Shown in pieces: positions 1 to 5,896 of a stretch of DNA of 5,896 nt. Source of the stretch: Desulfobulbaceae bacterium. Lineage in GTDB: Bacteria > Desulfobacterota > Desulfobulbia > Desulfobulbales > Desulfocapsaceae. How positions within the stretch are numbered: position 1 is the first letter of the stretch; each line of letters opens with the position of its first letter. The position numbers were made by a program, and so were the translations under genes. The notes under the pieces are model-generated. The model was not told the DNA's origin. It was given only the letters and a program-made list of their open reading frames with translations, and did not search any database. Location: assembly GCA_003509305.1 (NCBI GenBank), contig DOMU01000121.1, forward strand, positions 5,330-11,225. The letters run 5' to 3'.

Positions 1-852
1 GGGAGTGGGAACGGCGGCCAGAACGCCACAACCACGAATAGCATCATAAACGGCGGCGATGAGGGAAAAACCAGCTACGACCCGGCGGCAAATATAGATA
101 AGGAAAATTTCTTCAGAAGGGCCGATACGGCGGGCGATACCGGCGCGGGCTGGCTGTCGCGCTACACGAGAGAGGCCGGGCGGGAACTGGAAATCAAGAC
201 CGGAACCGTCATTCCGGCGGTGCTGGTGACAGGCATCAACTCGGATTTGCCAGGCGTCATGATCGCCCAGGTGAGCCAGAACGTTTTCGACACGGCATCG
301 GGCAAATACCTTCTGATCCCGCAGGGGGCCAAACTCTACGGCATGTACGACTCGCGGGTGGTCTATGGCCAGGAGCGCGTTTTGGTCGCCTGGAACCGCG
401 TCATTTTCCCGGACGGCTCAAGCGTCACCTTAGGATCGATGCCGGGCGCCGATATGAGCGGTTACGCGGGTTTTCATGACAAGGTGAACAACCACTATAT
501 CCGGGCTTACTCGAACGCTTTTCTCATGTCGATTGTCACGGGATCGGCGGCGTACATGGTCGATTACTTTGATAACAGCAATAGCAGTTATGACGCCTTT
601 GGCAATCGTCAGCCTTCATTTGGCGATGAGATTGGCCGGGCCATGGCCCAGCAGATGAGCCAGGCGACAATCAGGATTTTAGAGAAGAACCTGAATATTT
701 CGCCGACGTTAGAAATCCGGCCCGGCTACCAGTTCAACGTCATCTGCACCAAAGATGTCGCTTTTACCGAGCCGTATTCCGATCAGTTCACCCGCCCCGG
801 TGAAGGACAAGTTACGGAGGCCAGCCATGCAAGCGGCACAGTACGGCCATAA
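1..852 (+). CDS. trbI: TrbI/VirB10-like conjugal transfer protein, C-terminal part (5' end outside window)
   Basis: The frame is open from base 1 and ends at TAA 850-852, giving 283 visible residues. TrbI/VirB10 spans the cell envelope and forms part of the outer-membrane core channel of the conjugative type IV secretion system. A low-complexity Gly/Asn/Thr linker occupies residues 1-30. The conserved VirB10 C-terminal domain follows, with the signature GTVIPAVLVTGINSDLPG at 68-85, then AQVSQNVFD (89-97), YLLIPQGAKLYGMYDS (103-118) and PDGSS. The hydrophobic stretch AFLMSIVTGSAAYMV fits the outer-membrane antenna region. The N-terminal cytoplasmic and transmembrane part lies outside the window. 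The last eight codons lie in a 27-bp sequence that recurs at 1493-1519. In that sequence the trbI end overlaps the traG start in another frame, so the ancestral genes overlapped by 26 bases. Family assignment is secure; the exact name (trbI versus virB10) rests on the traG/traF context. Confidence 0.93.
   Translation, partial: GSGNGGQNATTTNSIINGGDEGKTSYDPAANIDKENFFRRADTAGDTGAGWLSRYTREAGRELEIKTGTVIPAVLVTGINSDLPGVMIAQVSQNVFDTASGKYLLIPQGAKLYGMYDSRVVYGQERVLVAWNRVIFPDGSSVTLGSMPGADMSGYAGFHDKVNNHYIRAYSNAFLMSIVTGSAAYMVDYFDNSNSSYDAFGNRQPSFGDEIGRAMAQQMSQATIRILEKNLNISPTLEIRPGYQFNVICTKDVAFTEPYSDQFTRPGEGQVTEASHASGTVRP
816..829 (+). promoter_or_regulatory. Orphaned traG ribosome binding site and start codon
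   Basis: GGAGG at 816-820 stands six bases before ATG 827-829. The codons after this ATG match the traG N-terminus (MQAAQYGHK) and then run into the hicAB insertion. It is evidently the ancestral traG initiation site, left behind when the cassette was inserted. It now opens a 231-codon reading frame antisense to hicAB that ends at 1519, inside the second repeat copy. Confidence 0.7.
826..852 (+). repeat. 27-bp direct repeat, left copy (trbI end / old traG start)
   Basis: This copy is identical over 27 bases to 1493-1519 (it begins CATGCAAGCGGCAC and ends GGCCATAA). The flanking bases differ on both sides. It contains the trbI stop and, in another frame, the first codons of traG. The two copies lie 667 bp apart and bracket only the hicAB pair, so it behaves like a duplicated target of the insertion. 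27 bp is unusually long for a common transposase duplication. Confidence 0.92.
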
Positions 853-853
853 A

Positions 854-1198
854 TCAGGCGTGTTGTTCGACCGATTCCGCCAGCGCCGCAATCATCCAGG
901 CGTTCAGGCTTTCGCCTTTAACCTCGGCCATCACCGCCAATTGGGCGTGCAGATCAGGCGGCATCCGCAAAGTGACCCGACCGGAATATGGCTTGTTCGG
1001 CTGCCGTCCCAGCTTAGCGCAGGTTTCAAGATAATCATCAACGGTTTCCTCAAAAACCGTGCGGATTTCCGCAACGGAATCGGCATGAAAACCGATGATG
1101 TCGTTAATGCCCATGATATGGCCGACAAGACAGGTATCTTCGGCGCTATAAGCGATATGGGCGGTGTAGCCTCTGTAAGTCATGGCACTGTTGGTCAT
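854..1198 (-). CDS. hicB: HicB-family antitoxin (cassette 1)
   Basis: A 114-residue protein. The N-terminal part has the partial RNase H-like HicB fold (MTYRGYTAHIAYSAED, then GHIMGINDIIGFHADS). The segment FEETVDDYLETC is typical of this HicB subfamily. The C-terminal part (about 72-108, RVTLRMPPDLHAQLA, SLNAWMIAALAE) is a ribbon-helix-helix DNA-binding domain. In the family, HicB binds and neutralises the HicA RNase and represses the hicAB operon. The start ATG 1198-1196 overlaps the hicA stop (ATGA), so the two are translationally coupled; an internal ATG at residue 6 is an alternative start. The stop (854-856) is one base beyond the trbI stop in convergent orientation, so antitoxin-operon transcripts will run antisense into trbI unless terminated. 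The gene appears intact. Confidence 0.88.
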   Translation of the reverse strand: MTNSAMTYRGYTAHIAYSAEDTCLVGHIMGINDIIGFHADSVAEIRTVFEETVDDYLETCAKLGRQPNKPYSGRVTLRMPPDLHAQLAVMAEVKGESLNAWMIAALAESVEQHA

Positions 1199-1449
1199 GG
1201 CCGTATCCCTAATTTTTCCAGAAATGACTTTGCGTCCCCCACCTGGTATGCGGCGGCTTCCTTGTTGGGATGCGGGCGATGGAAATACGCCATCACCTCA
1301 TCCTTAATAAACCGCACCCGTGAGCCATCGCCTTCAATCACCAGGCATCCGGCGGCAATCAGCAGAGTTTCAATATCGGCCCACGGTAAGGATTTTGGGG
1401 TTGGGCTGCTAAAAATGGCGGCAAGGGTTTTTCGGTGTTTGCTGTTCAT
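1195..1449 (-). CDS. hicA: HicA-family toxin, putative mRNA interferase (cassette 1)
   Basis: An 84-residue protein beginning MNSKHRKTLAAIF. It belongs to the longer HicA subfamily that pairs with HicB proteins of the neighbouring type. A dsRBD-like core is visible: WADIETLLIAAG (23-34), GDGSRVRF (40-47) and YFHRPHP (55-61), with the probable catalytic His in the last motif (H57). HicA toxins cleave mRNA and are held inactive by HicB. I chose ATG 1449-1447 because homologs of this subfamily begin MNSKH. A start five codons upstream at 1464 is possible but would cover the candidate operator. No clear Shine-Dalgarno precedes 1449. Gene order is toxin first, with ATGA overlap into hicB. The gene appears intact. 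Confidence 0.85.
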   Translation of the reverse strand: MNSKHRKTLAAIFSSPTPKSLPWADIETLLIAAGCLVIEGDGSRVRFIKDEVMAYFHRPHPNKEAAAYQVGDAKSFLEKLGIRP

Positions 1450-1455
1450 GCGCCA

Positions 1456-1477
1456 TGATGTCATTTTGTGGTGTCAT
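1456..1477 (-). promoter_or_regulatory. Candidate hicAB-1 operator (repeated half-sites)
   Basis: Immediately upstream of the chosen hicA start, TGATGTCAT (1456-1464) and TGGTGTCAT (1469-1477) form a direct repeat with 8 of 9 matches at 13-bp spacing. The first copy is also within a short palindrome (ATGA-TG-TCAT, 1455-1464). This placement suits autoregulation by the ribbon-helix-helix domain of HicB. Promoter boxes on the minus strand are weak (TTGATT then CATCAT at 17-bp spacing), so this is a suggestion only. Confidence 0.35.
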
Positions 1478-1481
1478 AATC

Positions 1482-1486
1482 AAGGG
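1482..1486 (+). promoter_or_regulatory. Replacement traG ribosome binding site from cassette 1
   Basis: AAGGG at 1482-1486 lies seven bases before traG ATG 1494. It differs from the GGAGG used at the ancestral start (816-820), so insertion exchanged the translation signal of traG. A 231-codon frame starting at the old site also ends at 1519, 23 bases past this ATG, which could couple translation. Confidence 0.45.
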
Positions 1487-1492
1487 AAAAAT

Positions 1493-1519
1493 CATGCAAG
1501 CGGCACAGTACGGCCATAA
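1493..1519 (+). repeat. 27-bp direct repeat, right copy (current traG start)
   Basis: Second perfect copy of 826-852. Here it supplies the traG start (ATG 1494) and continues into the true traG coding sequence, whereas the left copy continues into hicB. The bases before it (AAGGG at 1482-1486, seven bases before the ATG) come from the inserted cassette and give traG a replacement ribosome binding site. Confidence 0.92.
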
Positions 1520-3177
1520 GAAGCGGGAAAAAGGGCCGGGGAAGGCGGCAATCTGGCTGTCCCTGACCGCTCTGGCGTTGTGGGTGGCGCTGACCCTGGC
1601 CTGGACGGCGGGGCGGATAGCGGCCCTTTACGGCTATAACGAAAGACTGGGCCAGCCTTTCGTCATCGAAGGCGTGGCTTTTTACAATCCTTTCGCCATG
1701 CTCTCCTGGCCAGAAGAGGTTCTCTCTGATTCGGAAGCGGACAAACTTTTTCAAATTGGCCTGGCGGTGAGTGTCCTTGTGCCGCTGGCCTTGGCCGGAC
1801 TGATTGCTGTAGCAAGAAAGCCTCACGTCTATGACGACCTGCACGGTTCGGCCCACTGGGCGGATAAAAAGGAAATCGAGGGTATGGGCTATCTGGAGGG
1901 CAAAGGCGTCTATACCGGCGGCTGGTGGGATGAAAAGAAAAAGGCGCAGATGTACCTGCGCCATGACGGGCCGGAACAACTACTGGGAGAAGGTGGCTTT
2001 CGGCTTTTTTCCCGGCGTTGTCCTGCACACCCTGATCAAAACCCGGCATGAGGAAGGCCGCTGCGCCAGCCTCTACGATGTCAGTCTGATGCTCGAAGAC
2101 CCCAAACGGGAAGGCGGGCCGAAAGAACTGTTCAAAGAGATGATCGCGGCCAAGCATGAGGAATGGCTGAAAAACATTTTCCCTGAAATGAGCCTGGAAC
2201 AGCGGCAGGCGATGCACATTTTCTGCGCTTCGGCGGCGAGCGGGATGTTGGCCAAAGCGGACAAGGAGATGGCGGGCGTGGTCTCGACCGCTACCGCGAA
2301 CCTTTCGCTCTACCGCGACCCAGTGGTCTCCTATAATACCGGGGCCAGCGACTTCCGTGTTGCCGACCTGATGAACCGCGATGAGGCGGTGAATCTTTAT
2401 CTCGTCGTCTCACCCGCCGATATTGACCGGCTGCGCCCGCTGCTGCGCATTTTTGCCTCACAGCTTTTAGGCCGTCTGACGGAGAAGATGGAATTCGGCG
2501 GCGGTGGCACCAAGGCCAGCTACAAGCACCGCCTGCTCTTGATGCTTGATGAGTTCACGAGCCTCGGCAAACTGGCCATTATCGAGCGGGCGATTGCCTA
2601 CATGGCCGGATACGGCGTCAAAGGTTATTTTATTGTTCAGGATACAAAACAATTAAACGGTGTATACGGGCAGGACAACGCGCTGATGGCCAACTGCCAT
2701 GTGCGCATCGCCTACGCGCCGAACCTGCCGGAGACGGCGGAATACCTGTCGAAACTGGCTGGCACCACCACGGTCGTTCAGAAAAAGAAATCCATTTCCG
2801 CTGGCAAAGGCGGGCGGAGCGTTTCGCGAAGCGTCCAGGAAACGGCCCGGCCTCTTTTAACCCCGGACGAATGCCTGCGCCTGCCGGGCATCAGGAAGGA
2901 ACATGGCCGCATCGTGCCTGGCGATATGCTGATCTTCACGGCTGGCAATTCGCCGATCTACGGCAGGCAAATCCTGGTCTTCCTCGACCCGGTTTTCCTG
3001 GCCCGCGCCTCTATGCCGCCCGCGCCTGCCGACAGCTTTTATTTCGAGCGGGAACAAGCCCCGAAACCAGCCAGACCGAAAGCGGCAAAGCCTGAAGAAC
3101 TCAGCCAGGAAACAATCGAAAACGCTTTCCTGCGCTACCTCGATGATTTGCCCGAAGGCATCCAGGGGGCGGCATGA
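1494..3177 (+). pseudogene. traG: TraG/VirD4-like coupling protein, broken by internal out-of-frame deletion
   Basis: TraG is the inner-membrane ATPase that links the relaxosome to the conjugative secretion channel. The first frame (from ATG 1494) gives the N-terminal domain: membrane helices at about residues 18-40 and 86-107 around a periplasmic loop, then DLHGSAHWADKKEI (115-128) and MYLRHDGPE (153-161). The family should continue here to the Walker A P-loop, but the sequence jumps to NYWEKVAFGFF in the +1 frame at about 1975-1981. The first frame then ends at 2051. From there about 400 residues of the ATPase domain read intact to TGA 3177, including Walker B LLLMLDEF (Asp-Glu codons 2548-2553), FTSLGKL and FIVQDTKQLNGVYG. 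Roughly 100-150 codons, including Walker A, are missing compared with typical TraG length (about 630-670 residues, from memory). Even a ribosomal frameshift could not restore a P-loop. Confidence 0.87.
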
Positions 3178-3188
3178 AGGCAAGAACA

Positions 3189-3437
3189 TCAAGGATACCC
3201 GGCGGCCTGTTCCAGGGCTTTGGTCACCCATTTATTGAGGCTGATACCGTCTTTAGCGGCCCGCGCCGCGATGCGCTGGTGTGTCTCCGGCGGAATACGC
3301 ACGTTGAAGTTGCCGGAAAAGGGCTTTTGCGGCTCCCGCCCTTTTTTCGCGCAGTATTCCAGATAGACCTCAATCGAATCAGCCAGGGCTGTTTTCAACT
3401 GGTCGAGAGAGCGCCCCTGGACTTTCTCCCTTTGCTT
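3189..3437 (-). pseudogene. HicB antitoxin remnant lacking its N-terminal region
   Basis: Directly after the stop of the upstream hicB, and in the same frame, the reading continues as QGRSLDQLKTALADSIEVYL, then EYCAKKGREPQKPFSG and a ribbon-helix-helix domain (NFNVRIPPETHQRIAARA, SLNKWVTKALEQ) to TGA 3191-3189. This is the C-terminal two-thirds of a HicB of the same subfamily as the cassette 1 antitoxin, which shares the EYC/ETC-AK-GR-P-KP-SG pattern. The N-terminal 35-45 residues and any partner hicA are gone. The only nearby start is a TTG at 3398 with no good ribosome binding site, so it is probably not translated on its own. It lies 11 bases past the traG stop in convergent orientation. 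Confidence 0.8.
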
Positions 3438-3836
3438 TCAAAGCCTCAAAGCTTTGGCGGCAGAATCGGCAAGAAAGGCGGAGCGGCTTTTCGCTTTGCC
3501 GCTGGCGACAGCGGCATCAATTTTTCTGATCAAAAGCCTCGGCAAGGTGACGGTGGCTTTTTCGGAACCGCCCAGAAACGGAGTGATGTCCACTTCGACA
3601 AAGGCCCAGACCGCCCCTTGGTATTCAGGCAGGCCGCTGTGCTTGTCAATCGTGGACGGCGCCGGTGCGATAATACCGTCTTCAGCCAGGATTTCGAGAT
3701 GGCCCGCTATGGCTTCCCCAGCGCTGGCAATGGCCTCGTCAACGCTTTCCCCTGCCGAGAAACAGCCGGGAATATCCGGCACGGAGACGCCATAACAAGA
3801 GTCCATGTCCTTATGAAGAGCGATAGGATATTTCAT
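3438..3836 (-). CDS. hicB: HicB-family antitoxin (cassette 2)
   Basis: A 132-residue full-length HicB. The N-terminal HicB fold is clear: MKYPIALHKDMDSCYGVSVP, DIPGCFSAGESVDEAIASA and EAIAGHLEILAEDG, followed by P-S-ID, GAVWAFVEVDITPFLG and a C-terminal ribbon-helix-helix segment (ATVTLPRLLIRKIDAAVA, SRSAFLADSAAKAL). In the family it neutralises HicA and represses its own operon. ATG 3836-3834 overlaps the hicA stop (ATGA). It belongs to a different subfamily from the cassette 1 HicB, so the two pairs are not copies of each other. Its TGA stop (3440-3438) is followed in frame by the hicB remnant. The gene itself looks complete, because the ribbon-helix-helix domain ends just before the stop as usual. 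Confidence 0.9.
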   Translation of the reverse strand: MKYPIALHKDMDSCYGVSVPDIPGCFSAGESVDEAIASAGEAIAGHLEILAEDGIIAPAPSTIDKHSGLPEYQGAVWAFVEVDITPFLGGSEKATVTLPRLLIRKIDAAVASGKAKSRSAFLADSAAKALRL

Positions 3837-4015
3837 GGCAAGCCCGCCTGTTTCAAAATGTTTGCGATGGTGCCTTTCGGCAATGTTCTTTTGGGATGCG
3901 GCACGGTGACCACACCTTTTTTAATTGGGTGTTTGAAATGATGATGACTTCCCGTGACCCGGACAAGATGCCAACCATCGGCTTCGATCATTCTGATGAT
4001 GTCTTTACTGTTCAC
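3833..4015 (-). CDS. hicA: HicA/YcfA-like toxin, putative mRNA interferase (cassette 2)
   Basis: A 60-residue HicA of the short, common type. It begins GTG AAC AGT (xNSKDIIRMIEADGWHLVR), continues with the hallmark GSHHHFKHP (22-30), which holds the likely catalytic His (H24), and ends VTVPHPKRTLPKGTIANILK. Such toxins are small dsRBD-fold RNases that cleave mRNA when unbound by HicB. GTG 4015-4013 is chosen because GGGAGG stands five bases upstream on the minus strand (complement of about 4021-4026) and because length and N-terminus match the family. It ends in an ATGA overlap with hicB. It looks intact. Confidence 0.9.
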   Translation of the reverse strand: MNSKDIIRMIEADGWHLVRVTGSHHHFKHPIKKGVVTVPHPKRTLPKGTIANILKQAGLP

Positions 4016-4027
4016 CGGAGCCTCCCT

Positions 4028-4591
4028 TTGCGGATAACGATATACCTCTGGCGGTATCTTTTCAAGATCAAAACGAAGTTCAAATATATGGGAGGAACGG
4101 CTTTGGTGATTTTGTCTGTCCTCTTTGCCGCCAGGATTTCCGGATTTGTCATTAACACGACCACGAGCCTGCCGGTTGGCCTTTACCGGCTGGTGGATGA
4201 ACCGCTCCGGCGCGGTGGACTGGCCACCTTCTGCCTGGAGGATAAGCCCTTCATCCAGCTTGCCAGAGAGCGCGGCTATCTGGGGAATGGTTCATGCCCA
4301 GGCGGCATCCAGCCTCTCGGTAAGGAGATATTCGGCCTGCCAGGCGATGTGGTCAGCCTGAGAGATGGATTGATTGCTGTAAATGGCGCGATTATGCCGC
4401 TTTCTGGAGCAAAAAGTACCGACAGCCAGGGCCGGCGTATGCCGGCGCCGGCGAAGTTTGGAAATGGCACAATTCCGGAAGGTTACGGACTGATGCTGTC
4501 GCCACGTCACGCGGGCGGCTTTGATTCTCGATATTTCGGCCTGGTCAGGCTTTCGCGCCTGCATCCGGTCAAGCCGGTTTTCACCTGGTGA
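4028..4591 (+). CDS. traF: TraF-like conjugative transfer signal peptidase (S26 family)
   Basis: TraF is an inner-membrane Ser/Lys protease; in RP4 it matures the TrbC pilin. From ATG 4088 the protein has 167 residues: a hydrophobic anchor (about 3-20), then TSLPVGLYR with the presumed nucleophile Ser27, LGKEIFGLPGD with presumed Lys79, and FDSRYFGLV with an Asp (146) that fits the third conserved residue of RP4 TraF. Cys49 and Cys70 could form a periplasmic disulfide. The start is uncertain. TTG 4028 has GGAG seven bases upstream and includes the basic stretch KIKTKFKY expected before the anchor; ATG 4088 has only weak GAAG and loses that stretch. The original start was probably the ATG at 3174 overlapping the traG stop, now separated by the hicAB-2 insertion. 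The catalytic domain is intact; expression may be impaired. Confidence 0.85.
   Translation: MRITIYLWRYLFKIKTKFKYMGGTALVILSVLFAARISGFVINTTTSLPVGLYRLVDEPLRRGGLATFCLEDKPFIQLARERGYLGNGSCPGGIQPLGKEIFGLPGDVVSLRDGLIAVNGAIMPLSGAKSTDSQGRRMPAPAKFGNGTIPEGYGLMLSPRHAGGFDSRYFGLVRLSRLHPVKPVFTW
4037..4065 (-). promoter_or_regulatory. Candidate hicAB-2 promoter and operator
   Basis: On the minus strand TTGAAA (4065-4060) is followed after 17 bases by TATCGT (4042-4037); TATATC at 15-bp spacing is an alternative -10. Between and overlapping the boxes is an inverted repeat, ATACC (4042-4046) and GGTAT (4053-4057), with a six-base centre. This is a fitting place for a HicB dimer to block transcription. Start of hicA lies about 22 bases downstream of the -10. 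Promoter calls by eye are weak; the palindrome is directly visible. Confidence 0.45.
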
Positions 4592-4853: not shown

Positions 4854-5896
4854 ATGGCGGAAGAGAAAAAGCCGTACTATCAGCGGATGGCCGATGAGGT
4901 GATCGAGGCCCTGGAAAAAGGCACGGCGCCCTGGGTGCAGCCCTGGCAGCCAGGCGAAATGCCGGAGGCCCCGGTCAACGCCGTCACCGGCAAACCCTAT
5001 CGCGGCATTAACCGTCTCCGGCTGAGCATGAGCGAAGATTCTCTCGGTACCGGTGACCCGCGCTGGTGTACCTATAAGCAAGCCCAGGAACTGGGCGGCC
5101 AGGTGAAACGGGGCAGCCACGGCATGAGCGTCCAGTACTGGCAATTCGAGGAGGAACGGCTGAAGCGGGACGGTGAGGGCAAAGCGGTTCTGGGTGAAGA
5201 TGGGCAAAAACAATACGAGACGGTCCGCCTGGAAAAACCACGGGGCTTTTTTACCACTGTCTTCCACGCCTCGCAGATCGAGAATCTTCCGCCCTTGCCG
5301 CCGAAGGAGAGGCAAGACAGCCCGGAAGTGGCCTGGGAGCGCCATGAAAAGGCGGAAAAGATTCTCGAAAATTCCGGGGCGGAAATCTTTAATGACCAGC
5401 GCGACCGGGCCTTTTACCGACCACTGGAAGATACAATTCACCTGCCCAAACGGGAACAATTCCCGACCCAGGATGGCTATTACGCCACGGCCCTGCACGA
5501 ACTTGGTCATTGGACGGGCCACGAGTCCCGGCTGAACCGGGACATCAGGAACCCTTTCGGCAGTGAAAAATACGCCCGTGAAGAGCTGCGGGCGGAACTG
5601 GCAAGCTACATGCTGGGCGCTGACCTTGGTATTGGCCATGATCCTGGCCAGCACCAGACCTATGTCGCGAGCTGGATCAAAACGCTGAAAGAAGACCCAC
5701 AGGAGATCATCCGGGCGGCGAGGGACGCCGACAAGATTATGGAATATGTCAAGGGGCTGGAATTAGGAAAGGATCAGGAGGAGGAAGCATCCATGGCGGC
5801 GGGAGAAAATGGGCAGGGACTTTCCCAGGCTGCTACCCCAGCCACCGAAAAAACCTGGCTGAAGGTACATTTCAAAGAAAAAGAGGCGGCGAAAGC
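4854..5896 (+). CDS. ArdC-like antirestriction protein with zincin metallopeptidase domain (3' end outside window)
   Basis: The frame is open from ATG 4854 to the window edge, 347 codons, with GAGGAAG at 4841-4847 as ribosome binding site. The N-terminal ArdC-type ssDNA-binding domain shows GTAPWVQPWQPG, NAVTGKPYRGINRLRL, DPRWCTYKQAQELGGQVKRG and FFTTVFHASQIENLPP. The following metallopeptidase domain has HELGHWTGHESRLNR (zinc-site His215, Glu216, His219), with EELRAEL (243-249) offering the third acidic ligand. After a polar linker, residues 333-347 (KTWLKVHFKEKEAAK) look like the beginning of a DUF5710-type domain, cut by the edge. ArdC proteins of conjugative plasmids help incoming single-stranded DNA survive restriction in the recipient. 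All visible catalytic residues are intact. The substrate is unknown, and a further C-terminal domain may lie outside. Confidence 0.88.
   Translation, partial: MAEEKKPYYQRMADEVIEALEKGTAPWVQPWQPGEMPEAPVNAVTGKPYRGINRLRLSMSEDSLGTGDPRWCTYKQAQELGGQVKRGSHGMSVQYWQFEEERLKRDGEGKAVLGEDGQKQYETVRLEKPRGFFTTVFHASQIENLPPLPPKERQDSPEVAWERHEKAEKILENSGAEIFNDQRDRAFYRPLEDTIHLPKREQFPTQDGYYATALHELGHWTGHESRLNRDIRNPFGSEKYAREELRAELASYMLGADLGIGHDPGQHQTYVASWIKTLKEDPQEIIRAARDADKIMEYVKGLELGKDQEEEASMAAGENGQGLSQAATPATEKTWLKVHFKEKEAAK

Follow-up and report, generated by a model that had tools for sequence, protein, structure and literature searches.

A hicAB toxin–antitoxin (TA) pair in a conjugation operon of a Desulfobulbaceae bacterium is bracketed by two identical copies of a 27-bp sequence, the left of which completes trbI and the right of which starts traG, and comparison with relatives lends good support to a history in which the two genes first overlapped and the pair was inserted later. 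The window, that is, the whole 5,896-nucleotide stretch analyzed here, comprises bases 5330–11225 of an 11,225-bp contig from a 1.77-Mb, 79% complete metagenome assembly of 237 contigs, and the duplicated overlap is a single case from this fragmented assembly.

The 27-bp repeat and the hicAB unit

No other exact direct repeat in the window is as long as this one (positions 826–852 and 1493–1519, plus strand; 27 of 27 bases identical), and the longest among 300 dinucleotide-Markov surrogates is 16 bp. As described in the initial annotation, the left copy completes trbI and the right copy starts traG. The two are read in different frames: the left copy encodes SHASGTVRP followed by the stop codon of trbI, whereas translation of the right copy from the traG ATG at position 1494 gives MQAAQYGHK. 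The repeat is one base longer than the 26-bp trbI–traG overlap; the true duplication could span either 26 or 27 bp, its first base, a C, possibly being a chance match.

The 640-bp insert between the copies (853–1492) is antisense to the operon and, as delineated from its open reading frames (ORFs) and sequence, corresponds to a hicAB transcription unit that extends 1 bp beyond the hicB stop codon. By ORF and Pfam analysis, it contains only the hicA toxin gene (1195–1464, minus strand; 84–89 aa, with a start conserved among relatives at 1449; PF07927, E = 4.1e-9, 36.8 bits vs. a cut-off of 27) and the hicB antitoxin gene (854–1198, same strand; 114 aa; PF05534, E = 9.2e-19, 67.6 bits vs. a cut-off of 21), which overlap by 4 bp, plus a leader that measures 28–43 bp according to where hicA is taken to start. 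The initial annotation had correctly described a perfect repeat around a unit holding these two genes, with a leader put at about 45 bp. The hicA leader (1450–1492, minus strand), compared by eye with those of related hicAB modules, appears to contain operator-like half-sites in the order seen in the other leaders, namely, a TTGAC-like element followed by paired TATCA-type half-sites. A consensus sigma-70 scan of the insert yielded no promoter match, and the two terminator-like sites in the insert are no more than shuffled sequences yield. At one end of the insert, trbI and hicB are convergent, and a single base separates their stop codons; the other end lies about 9 bp outside the −35-like TTGATT of hicA (reverse complement of 1478–1483). 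Each joint coincides with a functional boundary, be it of trbI, hicB, the hicAB leader, or traG. Within the leader, AAGGG on the plus strand (1482–1486), located seven bases 5′ of the traG ATG, is a possible ribosome-binding site for traG. The G + C content of the insert is 52.7%, compared with 56.4% for trbI and 58.3% for traG. Among the protein matches listed, the best for HicB of the insert was P0001, a protein of equal length with 89% identity; sequence searches of the PDB with HicA and HicB retrieved no useful relative at the limits used. We regard hicAB as a putative addiction module embedded in the conjugation operon. It resembles known HicAB type II modules in that hicA (PF07927) comes first and hicB (PF05534) second, the genes overlap, and the compact leader appears by eye to carry paired half-sites, but differs from them in being bounded by a duplicated host-gene overlap with almost no surplus flanking DNA.

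On the left, the window holds the 3′ part of the VirB10-like gene trbI (1–852, plus strand; PF03743, E = 1.5e-63), the ORF of which is open at the window start and ends in the left repeat copy. On the right, traG is split between two frames on the plus strand, the first of which (1494–2051) matches residues 3–166 of TraG from Desulfosarcina sp. OttesenSCG-928-A07 (locus L002), whereas the second (1969–3177) matches residues 261–652 and positions 142–458 of the PF02534 profile (E = 1.6e-66). The frame changes near position 1978, and about 94 codons, approximately residues 167–260 of the L002 homolog, are missing, a stretch that presumably includes the P-loop motif of TraG. Farther downstream on the plus strand are traF, coding for an S26-like transfer peptidase (4088–4591; PF10502, E = 8e-12; 68% identical to L002 TraF), and an ArdC-like antirestriction gene left incomplete where the window stops (4854–5894; PF08401, PF18818). 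The proposal that the TA pair entered with neither neighbor cut is borne out at the joint itself, where both genes are intact, but traG is broken further in, which the initial annotation had missed. In addition, assembly gaps (NN) fall within trbG and trbI. The conjugation operon may be decaying, and if so, the TA genes may be passengers rather than guards.

The trbI–traG junction in relatives

In a survey of empty sites, TrbI relatives were retrieved from genome collections and the ends of the respective trbI genes were read. The uninterrupted overlap expected under the proposal that trbI and traG formerly shared bases was found: L002 carries a single copy of the repeat, differing at 2 of 27 bases, in an uninterrupted 26-bp trbI–traG overlap, and in two Desulfobulbaceae MAGs (L004 and L005, the contigs of which recur as L073 and L084), the genes overlap by 23 bp, the shared stretch ending in CAGTACGGCCATAA, as in L002. 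The L002 operon shares with the one studied here the gene order trbF-trbG-trbH-trbI-traG-traF along with the 26-bp overlap, but has one overlap copy, a traG in a single reading frame, and no matches to the TA proteins of this contig. In five other loci (L003, L072, L075, L076, and L078), trbI and traG adjoin with a short overlap or none, and the start of traG still encodes QYGH.

The tails VRP, IRP, and LRP are those that such overlaps impose on TrbI. Among the best 120 of 1950 TrbI matches, which include the protein encoded in the window, 18 of the 119 others end in VRP, and IRP or LRP tails occur among the 60 ends that were read. The overlap is not universal, given that P0122, the nearest TrbI relative among the matches listed (85%), ends in VRR. 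Because single-copy, uninterrupted overlaps and VRP-type tails occur in relatives, the overlap most probably predates the insertion, and this order of events is well supported by the sequence comparison. Furthermore, the two copies in the window agree with each other throughout and differ from L002 at two positions, so that the duplication is most simply placed after that split.

Other DNA of approximately 0.4–2 kb lies at the trbI–traG junction in L006 (4702–5379), L008 (4700–6660), and L009, of which L006 and L008 were inspected. Given this extra DNA, the junction may be a common landing place.

Origin of the duplication

We searched the unit for signs of mobility. As terminal inverted repeats, the insert ends match each other no better than chance (62% of 500 random placements reach the same score); when read directly, they show no TGT/ACA, and neither a transposase nor an integrase is found in the 640 bp by ORF and Pfam analysis; the initial annotation had likewise seen no transposase or terminal inverted repeats. 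A strict search for abutting repeats was performed on 34 hicAB modules, the window's included (one of them, L054, with only 9 bp of upstream sequence). These 34 were left after removal of second records of a place already represented (L001, L031, L032, L034, L040, L086, L091, and L092), of the three loci fetched only for the L057 repeat (L093–L095), of the TrbI loci (L070–L085), and then of the loci that lacked usable matches to both hicA and hicB. Only the window's module has a long abutting repeat, and none of the 33 others has one longer than 9 bp.

When wider flanks were inspected, repeats of 32 bp (L044), 22 bp (L057), 19 bp (L052), and 13 bp (L046, of which L034 is a second record) came to light, but were rejected as module-bounding duplications because none abuts its module. 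For the 22-bp repeat of L057 (G049:C48), five copies were counted in that genome when two mismatches were allowed, four of these on one contig, and it is thus a dispersed repeat near TA genes; by likeness to it, the L044 and L052 repeats look dispersed as well.

As for wider distribution, 13 plasmid records match part of hicAB at 60–80% identity, none over 80% of the unit, and no match to the unit was found in phages. HicB-like proteins in general are common, being encoded in 71 of 257 genomes of the order (E ≤ 1e-15) and in 1108 plasmid records, all of the latter at less than 60% identity; no relatives of HicB or TrbI were found in viral contigs. Among the titles and abstract openings listed in a literature search, largely outside subscription journals, none concerned a TA insertion that doubles a gene overlap.

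We consider illegitimate, repair-type copying to be the leading explanation, with about an even chance of being correct: hicAB would have been inserted into the trbI–traG overlap, which was doubled in the process and kept since each gene needs its own copy. Such an insertion with local duplication could occur, for example, through a template switch resuming upstream, possibly followed by trimming, and the surplus flanking bases would either never have been there or have been trimmed. On this reading, the extent of the shared bases and selection, rather than the constant stagger of some enzyme, would have determined how long the repeat is, because it exceeds the overlap by a single base and all joints coincide with functional limits. 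The doubled overlap was probably kept by selection, as neither gene is cut at the joint. Recombination between the 27-bp copies would excise hicAB scarlessly and restore the overlap, and cells losing hicAB would be poisoned by leftover HicA, keeping the module in place. The mechanism of duplication is predicted from sequence, and illegitimate insertion is preferred because no terminal inverted repeats, transposase, or Xer-like site were found in the unit and its repeat, nor abutting repeats longer than 9 bp in the 33 other modules. Against it, having zero or one surplus base is unexpected of a process yielding random lengths, unless trimming followed.

The length of the repeat also fits another mechanism. 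Elements of the IS1202 group generate target duplications of 16–28 bp (PMC10132070), and the 27 bp found here lie within this range, which counts against illegitimate insertion. A trans-acting transposase with a fixed long stagger, like those of this group, might have moved a non-autonomous hicAB unit, in which case the 27 bp would be a target site duplication and only insertions that duplicated the whole overlap would have survived; a stagger of 27 combined with selection for intact genes predicts the same exact fit to the overlap. However, IS1202-group elements possess terminal repeats and a transposase (PMC10132070), whereas the unit described here has no transposase, terminal inverted repeats, or TGT/ACA ends. 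Together with the lack of long abutting repeats at the 33 other modules and of a near copy of the unit in the plasmid and phage collections, this makes transposition a serious but clearly less probable explanation. The idea that the cassette of the initial annotation is a mobile one making its own duplication is not supported either, given the lack of terminal inverted repeats and of long abutting repeats at the 33 other modules, and the merely partial matches of the unit in plasmids and none in phages.

Integrase elements are typically flanked by direct repeats that restore the gene they enter, and the repeats here do rebuild their target genes. Under site-specific recombination, the 27 bp would be the attL/attR core of a tiny element mobilized by an integrase in trans, with an attachment site mimicking the overlap. 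Tyrosine recombinase matches in the genome number six and are spread over five contigs, which do not include this one, and the unit itself encodes no integrase. The 27-mer occurs only twice in the assembly with up to three mismatches allowed, i.e., nowhere else in the genome, and was not found in viral contigs. A parallel exists with the pdif (Xer) modules of Acinetobacter plasmids, small units that often contain TA pairs and are bounded by 28-bp sites (PMC13141974, PMC6449649); hicAB is likewise a small TA unit bounded by sites of nearly equal size, but here the direct repeat is coding sequence of both neighbors. Moreover, a Xer (pdif) site consists of two 11-bp arms with palindromic inner parts and a 6-bp spacer, whereas the 27-mer contains no arm-type palindrome (4 of 11 pairs, a level reached by 95% of random windows in this crude pairing count). 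We therefore regard this explanation as unlikely. A trans-acting enzyme of some kind is possible; nothing points to one.

Slightly less likely again is that two related elements, one with hicAB near traG, first formed a cointegrate or some other larger duplication, from which deletions trimmed all but the doubled overlap. This would account for all joints being at functional limits, and the extra DNA at the same junction in L006, L008, and L009 agrees with it, but no remnant of a longer duplication is present on either side, and copies that are still identical throughout allow scant time for a series of trimming events. Finally, an assembly artefact, in which short reads of two variants were merged through 27 shared bases, is highly improbable: this is a metagenome assembly, 79% complete, with two NN gaps on the contig (3043–3044 in trbG and 5328–5329 in trbI, in the coordinates of locus L096, the window starting directly after the second), but there is no N in or near the insert, and the joint would still need reads placing the 27-mer on both sides of hicAB.

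Antisense TA-type genes at other junctions

Antisense TA-type genes lie at three further junctions of the same operon, one of which, traG/traF, is inside the window; these had been overlooked in the initial annotation. In the rest of the same contig (L096, contig G000:C127), a minus-strand brnTA pair is located between trbL and trbF (L096:729–1263), and a helix-turn-helix (HTH) gene with a putative RelE-like gene between trbF and trbG (L096:2086–2740, minus strand). The latter product is tentatively named for its place beside the HTH gene; it has no Pfam or NCBIfam match, and a PDB sequence search retrieved no useful relative. The traG/traF junction (3189–4015) contains, all on the minus strand, a truncated hicB (3189–3398; PF05534, E = 7.1e-24; approximately 41% identical to HicB of the insert), the stop codon of which faces that of traG at a distance of 11 nt, followed by a second hicBA pair, which is complete and has a different type of HicB, comprising a hicB of the HicB_lk_antitox type (3438–3836; PF15919, E = 1.1e-42) and a hicA (3833–4015; PF07927, E = 2.3e-23). 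In the incomplete assembly, HicA matches (two) and BrnT matches (one) were found on this 11-kb contig alone.

At all four junctions (trbL/trbF, trbF/trbG, trbI/traG, and traG/traF), the TA-type genes are antisense with the toxin gene first, such that the antitoxin stop faces the stop of the previous gene and the presumed toxin promoter backs onto the start of the next one. In operon order, the antitoxin stop lies 238, 13, 1, and 11 nt from the preceding tra stop, and the toxin start 95, 65, 44, and 72 nt from the next tra start. The shared orientation of four of four units is not significant alone (2 × 0.5^4 = 0.125). A repeat comparable to the 27-bp one was not found at the other three junctions (20 of the 30 repeat families listed; sequences inspected by eye). 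In L002, the genes do not overlap at trbL/trbF, trbF/trbG, or traG/traF, which agrees with a repeat length set by the overlap, but the contrast between junctions is weaker than this locus alone suggests because the genes share 4 bp (ATGA) at both of the latter two junctions in L004 and at trbF/trbG in L003. Searching 44 fetched trb loci, some from the same genome twice and many not spanning the whole operon, with the TA proteins of this contig only gave no tblastn match at E ≤ 1e-3.

It is conceivable, albeit doubtful, that the antisense TA units cut the operon into separately guarded blocks, with wide overlaps doubled so that both genes survive, the units punishing deletion of their neighborhood, and the autoregulated leader acting as the local promoter or ribosome site of the next transfer gene. 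Of more interest than the duplication is the wider pattern, in which antisense TA-type genes occupy four junctions of a single conjugation operon, and their clustering poses a testable question, namely, whether they guard or regulate the transfer genes. The relatives with empty sites show that a gene pair can settle where two genes share bases, the shared bases being doubled and the joint harmless. This bears on how TA pairs spread when no mobility genes are visible, and the trbI–traG junction offers a clean site for weighing scarless loss against addiction.
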